Shown here one piece after another: positions 2,070 to 36,513 of a stretch of DNA of 38,053 nucleotides. The stretch is taken from contig DAOVGM010000087.1 in NCBI GenBank assembly GCA_030672365.1, positions 1 through 38,053 on the forward strand, in the 5' to 3' direction. How positions within the stretch are numbered: position 1 is the first letter of the stretch; each line of letters opens with the position of its first letter. Position numbers and translations under genes: made by a program. The notes under the pieces were generated by a model. That model was not told the origin of the DNA. It did not search any database and worked only from the letters and a program-made list of their open reading frames with translations. The stretch is from Methanomassiliicoccales archaeon. GTDB lineage: Archaea; Thermoplasmatota; Thermoplasmata; SG8-5; JAGLSY01.

Positions 2070-2123
2070 GGATTCATATTTTTACGTGCTGGCTCTGGCC
2101 CAGATGGTATGACAGATATGTTT

Positions 2124-2250
2124 GAACATCCCCGCCCTACCAGGCGGGGCTTTCACGAATCTTTGCTGTTTTCTGCTTGTCACAGAAAATGCTGGCAATA
2201 CATTACCCCGCCCTTGAAATGAACAGTTTTCGTACCAGACGGGGCATGAC
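2124..2250 (+). mobile_element. IS200/IS605-end-like hairpin module (non-autonomous remnant), copy 1
   Basis: CCCCGCC-ctacca-GGCGGGG-ctttcacgaatctttgctg-TTTTCTG-cttgtca-CAGAAAA; near-identical conserved core at 36348; no transposase. Confidence 0.5.
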
Positions 2251-2268
2251 GCAGTTGGCCGTATCGTT

Positions 2269-2346
2269 GCTCCGAGCAGGGCATAGGGGGTTGGGTATGC
2301 CCAGCGGAGGAGCAGGGTGGGGGGATTGAAAACTGGCTGGGGCGGG
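2269..2346 (+). repeat. Structured G-run element copy A
   Basis: GCTCC-GAGCA-GGGCATA-GGGGGTTGGG-TATGCCC-AGCGGA-GGAGC; G-run motif 2315-2346. Confidence 0.88.
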
Positions 2347-2360
2347 AATGATATTAAAAA

Positions 2361-13191: not shown

Positions 13192-13375
13192 CCGCTCCGA
13201 GCAGGACTTGGGGGGTCGGGCAAGCAATGTTGCGTTAAATGCGCAACATTATCCTTCGGGATGCGAAGCGAACCGAAGGATGGCTAGCGCAGGAGCGGGG
13301 TGGGGGGTGCATGAAATGTGTGGGGTGGGCCAAAAAGGCGTAAGGGTGGGGGGAGAAGAGATTGGTTGGGGAGGG
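13192..13375 (+). repeat. Structured G-run element copy B, with a two-hairpin cassette and two G-run motifs
   Basis: CCGCTCC-GAGCA-GGACTTG-GGGGGTCGGG-CAAG[hairpins]CT-AGCGCA-GGAGCGG; G-run motifs 13298-13329 and 13344-13375. Confidence 0.85.
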
Positions 13376-18463: not shown

Positions 18464-18844
18464 ATGTCCATGGTCGGGGAGTTAAAAAAGGAGCTAGAAA
18501 ACCTGAGCGAAAAGCACGGCATCGAGATTTCGGCAATCATTTCCAGAAGCGGTGTTCCTATTGCCTGGAATGTGCCTGATGAGTCGCAGGTAGAGACGTT
18601 TTCTACACTGTCTGCAACGATTCTCGGTGCATCGGAAGTAGTATATACTGGCTTGGGTAAAGAACCGCCAACGAAGATAATCGTTGAGTCAAAAAGCGGA
18701 ACGTTTTTGGCAGGCAGCATCAGCTCCAAGGCCCTTATCGCTGTGATCAGCAACTCGACCGACACGGAGGCAGTATGCAAATCCCTTGATGAGGCTACAA
18801 AAAACATAACGGAGGTTTTGGCCAATGCCCAGGGAAGCTTCTGA
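18464..18844 (+). CDS. Roadblock/LC7-domain protein
   Basis: LSEKHGIEISAIISRSGVPIAW... SATILGASEVVYTGLGKEPPTKIIVESKSGTFLAGSISSKALIAVI. Confidence 0.78.
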   Translation: MSMVGELKKELENLSEKHGIEISAIISRSGVPIAWNVPDESQVETFSTLSATILGASEVVYTGLGKEPPTKIIVESKSGTFLAGSISSKALIAVISNSTDTEAVCKSLDEATKNITEVLANAQGSF

Positions 18845-20366
18845 GCGCCACATACCCGAAGAGGTCAAATCGTTCTTTCAGCATAAAAGCGGCAGGTCGA
18901 TGATGGTCATCGGCGGAGCCGGCACAGGTAAGACCACGTTCGCGCTTCAATTGCTCGAAGAAATCGCCAAGCCAGAGAAGAGTTTTTACCTTACGACGAG
19001 GGTTTCCGACCAGGCCCTGTATTCACAATTTCCGTGGCTCGAAAGCGAGGACATGAAAAATAGGATCATCGATGCCAGCAGGATTTTCCTTTCGACGGTT
19101 TATACAGATGAGGAAGGAGGCGAACGCCCTGCCATTAGCAAGGAAGAGATGGAGCGTCTTTCCAGCGCGAAGGATTTTCTCAAATCCATCAACGACGAGC
19201 CGCTGGCTCCCCCGAGCAAAGTGGACCGCTCGCGGCTTTCGCTGCTTCTCGAAAGGAACCGCATGCCCGAAATCGAGCGAATCTACGACAAGGTCGATTC
19301 GATACTGCCCGAAAAAACGATGCTGGTCATCGACAGCATCGAGGGCATCACGAACAAATACGGGCTCGAGCCGGACGAGTTCATCACCTGCATTCAAAAG
19401 GATCTGGTCGAGGACTCGCACGTGGACACCGTGTTCGTCGTAGAGAAAGACAGCGAGCACGACCTGGGTTTTCTGGTAGATGGCATCATCCAGTTCGAGC
19501 ACGGCTTGCTGGAGGGCAGGAGAGTTCGCCAGATGAATTTGTTGAAGCTGAGGGCGACGGAAATCGCCCAGCCAGCATATATTATCACACTGAAGGACGG
19601 CAGGTTCATGAGTTTCGACCCGTTCGACGGCGCTCCTGGCACGGAGAAGGCACAGTGGCAGCCGATTCCGGACACGACAACGCATTACAGCACCGGCACG
19701 ACAGACCTCGATGAACTGCTGGCCGGCGGATATGCCAAGGGCAGTTACAACGTCATCGAGGTGGACGAGAACGTTTCCAATGAGGAATACTACTCGGTTG
19801 TCAGGCCGATCCTTCTCAACTTCATCTCGCAGGGAAAAGGCGTATTCGCAGTACTGACTGGCGGCGACCATGCAGAGTCGATGAAGAAAGACCTTACAAC
19901 TTACATTTCGGAGGACATCTTCGACAACTCGTTCAGGATCGCGGATTACTTCATTCACAAGTCAGATTCGCCGTACATCATGGCGCTGGGCACCCGTAAC
20001 AAGGAGGATGCGGTCCGCACCTGGAAGAGCAACCTGGAGTTTCTCAGAGGGCCGGATAACAAGCCCATAATCGATTTTACTGGCTTCGACACTCTCGAGT
20101 ATTTACAGGGCGGTGGCGTGGCGATAAAACAGCTTCTCGAGGCTGTAGCTAAGATTAAAATTTCGCAGGACATCGGCATCGGAATTTTGAAACCGGGGTT
20201 GAAACTCACCCAGGAAATCATGAACATGGCCGATACCTACCTCAAAATCACCGACATCAACAAATGCCCGTGCATCTACGGCATCAAGCCCAAGACGATA
20301 ATCTACGGCATCGTGGCAGATGCGGAAAAGGGCAGCCCGAACATCAAGCTGGTCCCCATAGTGTAA
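18825..20366 (+). CDS. RecA/KaiC-like ATPase, apparently two tandem domains with one canonical P-loop
   Basis: MMVIGGAGTGKTTFALQLLEEI; LVIDSIEGI; second domain STGTTDLDELLAGGYAKGSYNVIEVDENVS; overlaps the roadblock gene by 20 nt. Confidence 0.8.
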   Translation: MPREASERHIPEEVKSFFQHKSGRSMMVIGGAGTGKTTFALQLLEEIAKPEKSFYLTTRVSDQALYSQFPWLESEDMKNRIIDASRIFLSTVYTDEEGGERPAISKEEMERLSSAKDFLKSINDEPLAPPSKVDRSRLSLLLERNRMPEIERIYDKVDSILPEKTMLVIDSIEGITNKYGLEPDEFITCIQKDLVEDSHVDTVFVVEKDSEHDLGFLVDGIIQFEHGLLEGRRVRQMNLLKLRATEIAQPAYIITLKDGRFMSFDPFDGAPGTEKAQWQPIPDTTTHYSTGTTDLDELLAGGYAKGSYNVIEVDENVSNEEYYSVVRPILLNFISQGKGVFAVLTGGDHAESMKKDLTTYISEDIFDNSFRIADYFIHKSDSPYIMALGTRNKEDAVRTWKSNLEFLRGPDNKPIIDFTGFDTLEYLQGGGVAIKQLLEAVAKIKISQDIGIGILKPGLKLTQEIMNMADTYLKITDINKCPCIYGIKPKTIIYGIVADAEKGSPNIKLVPIV

Positions 20367-32026: not shown

Positions 32027-32102
32027 TTCACACACCTTTCCCGCGCTCCTAAACTTGCGCGGGATAAAAAACTATCTGGCAGCTCCGAGCAGGTGATGCA
32101 GT

Positions 32103-32185
32103 CCGCGTCGAGCAGGACATCGGGGGGAGGGGATGTCCAGCGCAGATGCGGAAGGGTGGGGGGAGAAACCATTGGCTGGGGCGGG
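32103..32185 (+). repeat. Structured G-run element copy G, immediately downstream of PCNA
   Basis: CCGCGTC-GAGCA-GGACATC-GGGGGGAGGG-GATGTCC-AGCGCA-GATGCGG-AA; G-run motif 32154-32185. Confidence 0.88.
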
Positions 32186-32208
32186 TAAAAATACAGATAA
32201 AATTTGGC

Positions 32209-35211: not shown

Positions 35212-36345
35212 ATGAAGACCAGATGGTCGATGGCATGGGTGGTCGCGAAGAAGGACCTCCGCGAGTTCCGCAAGAACAAGTACATCCTCTACACGCTGGT
35301 GATTACCCCGATAATAATGGCCGTCGTCATGCCGGTGGCTTCGGTCCTTCCGCTGCGGGGGGTGATGATCGAGCAGAACGTGGGCCAGGCATTCGATTAT
35401 GCAAACGTATCAGCTCCCGAGACATTCTTCCTGATGAATGAGGATTATGTCCCGACATACTTCAATATCTCTAATAACCAAACCGTCTATTTAGACTACT
35501 GGACAATCGAGAACCTGACAATCCAAAGTGCAAGTATACGGCATGCGGTGCTGAACAACGTGACGATTCGTGAAGCAATCGTCTCGAACTGCTTCCTGTC
35601 GAATGTGACGATTTTGTCAGGCCTGGTCGAAAATTCCACGCTTCTGGACACCTTCATACATCAGGGGCTTGTGTCGAATTGCACGGGCAACAACATTGTC
35701 TTGGGCGATGTCTACAATTCGGATTCGGACCTCTACAACACGATATTCGCCACACGACTGGATGCCAAGAGCTTTTCCAAGTCTCTCATCGACTCGATGC
35801 TGATATTCTTCGTCATGATTCCCGCGATTCTGCCGACTGTAATAGCCTCATACAGCTTCATCGGGGAGAAGCAGAACAAGAGCCTTGAACCCTTACTAGC
35901 CACCCCGACTTCGGACTTCGAACTGCTGATGGGTAAAAGTCTCTCGGTCTTCGTGCCGACGATGATATCGACGTTCATCGGCTTCGCCATCTTCGCCGCT
36001 CTGGTCAACGCGCTCCTCTACCAATTCTACACAGGGATCATAGTGCCGGACACGAACTGGCTCATCGGAATTCTAATCATCGCGCCGCTGTTCTGCATAC
36101 TCGGAATAATGGTGAACGTCATAATTTCGTCGAAGGTCAACGATGTCAGGGCCAGCCAGCAGCTCGGCTCCCTCGTCGTCCTGCCGATTATCCTGCTTTT
36201 CATAATGACGACGGTCGGAGCATTCACCCTCACACCGTGGGTCCTTCTCGGACTGGCAGGCATCCTATTAATAATCGACATATTCGTCTTCTGGCTCAGC
36301 CTCAAGGTATTCCAGAGAGAACAGATACTGGTACATTGGAAATGA
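35212..36345 (+). CDS. ABC-2 type transporter permease with pentapeptide-repeat-like extracytoplasmic domain
   Basis: VVAKKDLREFRKNKYILYTLVITPIIMAVVMP; ABC-2 core SFIGEKQNKSLEPLLATPTSDFELLMGKSLSVFVP. Confidence 0.9.
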   Translation: MKTRWSMAWVVAKKDLREFRKNKYILYTLVITPIIMAVVMPVASVLPLRGVMIEQNVGQAFDYANVSAPETFFLMNEDYVPTYFNISNNQTVYLDYWTIENLTIQSASIRHAVLNNVTIREAIVSNCFLSNVTILSGLVENSTLLDTFIHQGLVSNCTGNNIVLGDVYNSDSDLYNTIFATRLDAKSFSKSLIDSMLIFFVMIPAILPTVIASYSFIGEKQNKSLEPLLATPTSDFELLMGKSLSVFVPTMISTFIGFAIFAALVNALLYQFYTGIIVPDTNWLIGILIIAPLFCILGIMVNVIISSKVNDVRASQQLGSLVVLPIILLFIMTTVGAFTLTPWVLLGLAGILLIIDIFVFWLSLKVFQREQILVHWK

Positions 36346-36347
36346 TA

Positions 36348-36470
36348 GAACATCCCCGGCCTTACAGCCGGGGCTTTCACGAATCTTTACTGTTTTCTGC
36401 TTGTCACAGAAAACACTGGTACATCGAAACCCCGCCCTCGAATCGAAGAATTTTCGGACCAGACGGGGCA
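36348..36470 (+). mobile_element. IS200/IS605-end-like hairpin module, copy 2
   Basis: CCCCGGC-cttaca-GCCGGGG-ctttcacgaatctttac-TGTTTTCTG-cttgtca-CAGAAAACA; compensatory C-G to G-C change relative to copy 1. Confidence 0.5.
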
Positions 36471-36513
36471 TGCTGGATAAGGCCATATTATTGCCCCGAG
36501 CTGAGAGTGCAGT

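Follow-up and report, generated by a model that had tools for sequence, protein, structure and literature searches.

What kind of element is the short folded sequence that begins at position 32103 of this window, and why does it recur in one orientation? The window, the whole stretch of 38,053 nucleotides analysed here, is part of a 1.26-Mb Thermoplasmata archaeal MAG (GCA_030672365.1; G000, hereafter the source MAG), which is 84% complete and consists of 92 contigs. A sequence-only reading of the window had described six dispersed copies with two pairing stems, P1 and P2, and conserved internal loops, and had left open whether they fold as RNA or as ssDNA. All six copies (2267, 13192, 25601, 28509, 32103 and 36514) were found. 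The P1/P2 architecture ascribed to them is shared by four, whereas the copies at 13192 and 28509 have other hairpins replacing the P2 hairpin. The motif GAGCA-N7-9-GGGGG has 7 matches in the window versus 0.27 expected from dinucleotide shuffles. The copies, scored with the covariance model R2 that was used for the element searches, and the parts of the focal copy are as follows.

32103-32192, plus strand: focal copy, complete and simple, R2 match of 102.1 bits
32103-32109, plus strand: P1 of the focal copy
32110-32114, plus strand: GAGCA of the focal copy
32115-32121, plus strand: P2 of the focal copy
32122-32131, plus strand: G-rich loop of the focal copy
32132-32138, plus strand: P2' of the focal copy
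32139-32144, plus strand: AGCGCA of the focal copy
32145-32151, plus strand: P1' of the focal copy
32154-32163 and 32178-32185, plus strand: G runs of the focal tail, with an A-rich end to 32192
32082-32102, plus strand: 5' half of a copy, agCTCCGAGCAGgtgatgcagt, adjoining the focal copy on its 5' side
2267-2353, plus strand: complete simple copy, 88.1 bits
13192-13336, plus strand: copy with the P2 hairpin replaced by two extra hairpins, 58.3 bits
13338-13382, plus strand: 5'-truncated partial with only the P1' end and G-run tail, 29.2 bits
25601-25690, plus strand: complete simple copy, 92.7 bits
25701-25753, plus strand: 5'-truncated partial that begins near AGCGCA, 34.0 bits
28509-28712, plus strand: copy with the P2 hairpin replaced by four extra hairpins, 28.9 bits
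36514-36603, plus strand: complete simple copy with the top R2 score of the window, 105.4 bits

For the focal copy, the span 32103-32185 given earlier had the correct start, but its end, 32185, closes the last G run, and the R2 match continues to 32192. The single G-T pair reported in its P1 is present. Fragments of the 5' end like agCTCCGAGCAGgtgatgcagt also precede several other copies. Elsewhere in the window, positions 18825-20366 encode a GvpD-like protein (P-loop, basic region 2).

The core of the element is P1-GAGCA-P2-GGGGGNNGGG-P2'-AGCGSA-P1', and in almost every aligned copy both P1 and P2 comprise 7 bp. A conserved 3' tail with four G runs, GGGTGGGGGGa-N12-TGGaTGGGGYGGG (also written AAGGGTGGGGGGa-N12-TGGaTGGGGYGGG), lies within the unit. 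In about one sixth of the copies the P2 hairpin or apical loop gives way to one to four further hairpins, which have conserved loops (e.g. GATGCGAAGCGAA) and variable stems, and the length of the element is about 90-240 nt. The proposal that the stems vary while pairing is kept was borne out in an alignment of 38 source-MAG copies, where 98.3% of 526 cells are paired and double changes occur in 12 of the 14 pairs; the internal loops, described as nearly invariant, are indeed so in most aligned copies. The covariation score was 0.664, compared with 0.171 for shuffled alignments (none of 500 reached the observed value) and at most 0.096 with a slid structure. An R-scape-like test, using a FastTree tree and a null of independent columns simulated on that tree, gave E<0.05 for eight of the 14 stem pairs (three in P1, five in P2), which agrees with the suggested selection on folding; the sole other significant pairs fell among P1 columns 5, 6, 46 and 47.

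G-U combinations make up 6 of 517 standard pairs (1.2%). Structural RNAs usually contain several-fold more, and the near-absence of G-U here is more in keeping with folded DNA than with folded RNA. Folding of five copies as DNA, on both strands, gave -14 to -19 kcal/mol, roughly equal between the strands, with two additional G-C pairs predicted within the internal loop. A search of Rfam at gathering and E-value thresholds matched nothing relevant, and no described element with the same anatomy was found; the earlier reading had likewise recognised no named family. Loss of covariation or a match to a described family had been named beforehand as the outcomes that would count against a new element; neither occurred.

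The covariance-model search that had been proposed for this genome and its relatives yielded 113 R2 matches in the source MAG, mostly intergenic, and matches in 11 of the 13 genomes of the same order. Across the class, 18 of 150 genomes have matches, the strong ones being limited to the source MAG's order, and copy number in this order goes from more than 110 down to 0-3 per genome. In GTDB, exact matches to the core pattern were confined to MAGs labelled Thermoplasmata, Methanomassiliicoccales or Euryarchaeota; the contigs of IMG/VR gave none. One contig of 46,715 bp (DAOVAY010000001.1) is identical in the source MAG (C58) and in G012 (C69), two MAGs assigned to different families. One of the two bins must therefore be contaminated through some binning error, and the R2 matches in G012 are doubtful for this reason.

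The unit has sharp edges. Over stretches totalling 866 kb of the 1.26-Mb source MAG, conservation runs from P1 to the tail, the 60 nt located 5' of P1 are unconserved, and nothing is conserved past the tail. Pairwise alignments of copies extend from P1 through the tail, between flanks that are unrelated; C20:9733 and C9:16, for example, share 98% identity across 109 nt and differ in their 5' flanks. This precise recurrence in unrelated surroundings indicates that the unit has moved. A few intergenic element positions are common to the source MAG and another genus, which in individual cases hints at conserved locations, but a stricter test of orthologous positions between genera (2/4 versus 6/32) was not significant. 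Neither an empty site nor a target duplication was observed. A second dispersed family is also present in the window (2115-2277 versus 36339-36501, 80% identity over 163 nt) and adjoins an element copy on contig C19 as well; on the minus strand it ends GATTCGTGAAAGCCCCGCC..GGGCGGGG, which recalls the right end of archaeal TnpB (IS200/IS605-like) elements.

Three features go beyond the sequence-only reading: the tail as part of the unit, the more than 110 copies genome-wide, and the fixed orientation. Among 114 matches on 51 contigs, 29 contigs carry at least two copies and none of these is mixed in orientation; with only copies more than 3 kb apart counted, such uniformity has a chance probability of about 2^-31. 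Gene direction was considered as the cause of this polarity and rejected (269 kb of same-strand coding sequence versus 297 kb on the opposite strand; neighbour pairs 24/21/20/16). Once gene strand is corrected for, fourfold sites show the element strand to be rich in G (GC +0.034, CI 0.020 to 0.046) and in T (AT -0.056, CI -0.076 to -0.034). The GC effect is also found in G002 (+0.044), G011 (+0.081) and G007 (+0.129), while the AT effect is inconsistent across relatives.

At a lower threshold, 117 matches were obtained in 863 kb, with one exception in orientation, C78:5753-5834 on the plus strand; the remaining copies of this contig, from 29 kb on, are on the minus strand. The best Orc1/Cdc6 gene (C78:8939-10183), preceded by an ORB-like repeat GTTTCCAATGGAAATAAAGGGG, separates the plus copy from the minus copies. 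GC skew changes sign there, from +0.072 left of orc1 to -0.031 and -0.082 right of it, and AT skew goes from -0.132 to +0.130 and +0.176; the left-hand copy is single and decayed, and the skew is independent support for the orientation switch. The skew pattern near orc1 is similar in G008, G004 and G006, with a right-side GC value of about zero in G008, and a skew switch around orc1 is absent in G003. Near orc1 of the source MAG and these three relatives the polarity is inverted compared with bacteria, the left strand being G-rich and the right C-rich; inverted skew polarity relative to bacteria has been reported for haloarchaea (PMC2841640).

As copy orientation and skew both switch at the orc1/ORB region, the orientation of the element follows the replichore. 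The G-rich element strand points towards orc1 and would thus be the leading-strand template, with its C-rich complement on the lagging-strand template, an assignment that assumes orc1 to mark an active origin and the skew polarity to be inverted relative to bacteria. It is unusual for a repeat to keep to the replication strand without an observed exception outside the origin region, and where present the element could help to locate replichores and origins in archaeal MAGs that are fragmented. On the choice between RNA and ssDNA, the polarity with respect to replication, the independence from genes and the rare G-U pairs favour DNA.

A shorter relative of the element keeps P1, GAGCA, AGCGSA and P1', shows covariation as well, and occurs in G036, G003, G004, G001, G009 and others. 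G036 is a single contig of 5.16 Mb, and two arrays, each uniform in orientation (1.224-1.240 and 2.381-2.385 Mb), account for most of its short sites. At 25 of 29 short sites across genomes the 5' neighbour is a same-strand ORF, mostly within 60 nt. These ORFs, small and often of a defence type, encode PIN-domain, HEPN AbiV and MazE-like proteins, DNA methylases and many products of unassigned function; the PIN, AbiV and MazE-like genes are those of the G036 arrays, and DNA methylase genes precede single short sites elsewhere. Such a layout is that of gene cassettes, with a role in the 3' UTR as the alternative. The association with toxin and defence genes may reflect an archaeal route of gene capture, one that would escape attC-based searches. 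A short copy in G011 (C129) lies opposite to the orientation expected for the long form, and strict polarity is therefore claimed for the long form only. Two other sequences were observed close to short sites. A conserved stretch of about 100-150 nt, GATGCCTCGCCCGGAG..., lies downstream of short sites in G036:C1:1223000-1240000, looks structured and may be part of the cassette site. At loci L218, L211 and L212, IS605-like right ends (GTGGAAGCCCGTGTG.. / CTGTGGAAGCTCTGC..) are located 100-200 nt downstream of several short sites.

Searches for Y1 transposases (PF01797) and for tyrosine (PF00589) and serine (PF00239) recombinases gave no match in the source MAG or G002, an absence that is not final at 84% and 74% completeness, respectively. 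No recombinase was found among the ten ORFs beside the largest G036 array, and in G036 PF00589 matched just twice, partially and well away from this array. Y1 genes are present in seven genomes of the order, and none of those in relatives has an element adjacent to it. A conserved internal loop combined with freely changing paired stems gives the search for the cognate enzyme a clear target.

We infer mobility, action as ssDNA and a cassette function from these observations, and consider the chance about even that these units of about 90-240 nt represent a mobile DNA element which is non-autonomous and works in single-stranded form. The unit would fold when the replication fork exposes one strand; a recombinase or transposase would read the conserved letters of the internal loop in their stem context, independently of the stem sequence, and would make its cuts at the edge of P1 and at the tail. 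Joining of the product into ssDNA exposed at a fork would then fix the orientation. The short form may be a cassette-type recombination site, placed 3' of ORFs in arrays with toxin and abortive-infection genes, and the abundant long form an ORF-less derivative spread through the chromosome. More tentatively, and with less confidence, an attC-like folded site without R boxes may serve to build toxin/defence cassette arrays in some Thermoplasmata and may have become, in other lineages, a chromosome-wide set of replication-oriented hairpins without ORFs. If true, the cassette-array reading would amount to a previously undescribed archaeal recombination system. Several observations were counted against the mobile element: the searches gave no candidate enzyme, empty site or target duplication, a few intergenic positions recur in another genus, the near-invariant loops of most copies could equally reflect a function of every copy at its own site, and, judged by the position of orc1, the exposed lagging-template strand would be the C-rich complement.

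The same near-invariance among aligned copies is what a polar chromosome-maintenance site with a Chi/KOPS-like role would lead one to expect. In this main rival, which we consider rather unlikely, a repair, replication or segregation protein would read the site with polarity, as a fold or through its richness in G runs, and about one site per 10 kb would be held in the correct orientation by selection. Strict orientation with a switch at orc1, the high copy density and the few positions common to another genus are in its favour. It accounts poorly, however, for precise units of which some are near-identical at unrelated places, and for extra-hairpin and truncated copies that look selfish. A decrease from more than 110 to 0-3 copies within one order would also be odd for an essential system, and Chi and KOPS are short oligomers, in contrast to hairpins of 90 nt. 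A fold selected as RNA, in a cis-regulatory or small RNA, would explain covarying stems with conserved loops and the 3' UTR-like positions of the short form. It is nevertheless the most improbable explanation considered, as the long form follows replication and ignores genes, G-U pairs are scarce and Rfam gave no match; for the short form an RNA role is less improbable.

Mobile systems already described were weighed as well. It is improbable that the element is a true integron attC served by an integrase so far unrecognised, which would make the dispersed copies ORF-less cassettes or solo insertions at secondary sites. The layout is alike (an outer 7-bp stem, an unpaired spacer, an inner stem and a variable terminal structure), the short sites come after same-strand ORFs and are arrayed, and archaeal integrons exist (PMC9668308). 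R boxes (RYYYAAC/GTTRRRY), however, are present in none of 96 long and none of 21 short sites, no tyrosine recombinase was found in the source MAG or G002, and the dispersed copies are without cassette organisation. Slightly less probable again are repeats of the REP or IS200/IS605 type, moved by a Y1 HUH transposase that is lost or unassembled here. In favour are the high copy number of the intergenic hairpins, an orientation tied to replication and the occurrence of Y1 genes in seven genomes of the order; yet the 5' tetranucleotide of the element is not fixed (64 kinds in 96 copies, the commonest, CAGT, in 7), no Y1 gene was found in the two genomes with most copies, and elsewhere the Y1 genes are not adjacent to elements.

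Set beside known systems, the element shares its orientation by replichore with Chi and KOPS, but differs from them as a folded unit of 90-240 nt that looks mobile and is patchy between relatives. REP/REPINs are short extragenic hairpins of high copy number for which movement as ssDNA has been proposed (PMC6006769, PMC3116915), and REP as well as IS200/IS605 elements act on ssDNA and favour the replication fork (PMC6006769). The element is likewise a high-copy extragenic palindrome; unlike REP/REPINs with their RAYT, it is without a fixed tetranucleotide at the hairpin foot and no Y1 enzyme was found, and it has strict replication polarity, two stems with a conserved internal loop, and a G-run tail. 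IS200/IS605 elements carry subterminal hairpins and prefer one strand at the fork (PMC6006769). The orientation of the present element follows the replication strand as in these and their derived MITEs, but its hairpin is only at the 5' end, the 3' end is the G-run tail, there is no target tetranucleotide, and no transposase was found in the source MAG. The attC sites, including those of archaeal integrons, consist of stem, spacer, stem and variable end in a cassette position (PMC9668308). With these and CALINs the element has in common the stem-spacer-stem order with a variable end and, in its short form, the location 3' of ORFs in same-orientation arrays; it differs in having no R boxes, in that no integron integrase was found, and in the genome-wide dispersal of the long form. 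The element lacks tested defining features of REP, IS200/IS605 and attC; its working resembles theirs. Overall, it appears to be of an undescribed mobile or recombination type, with kinship to a cassette-type site.
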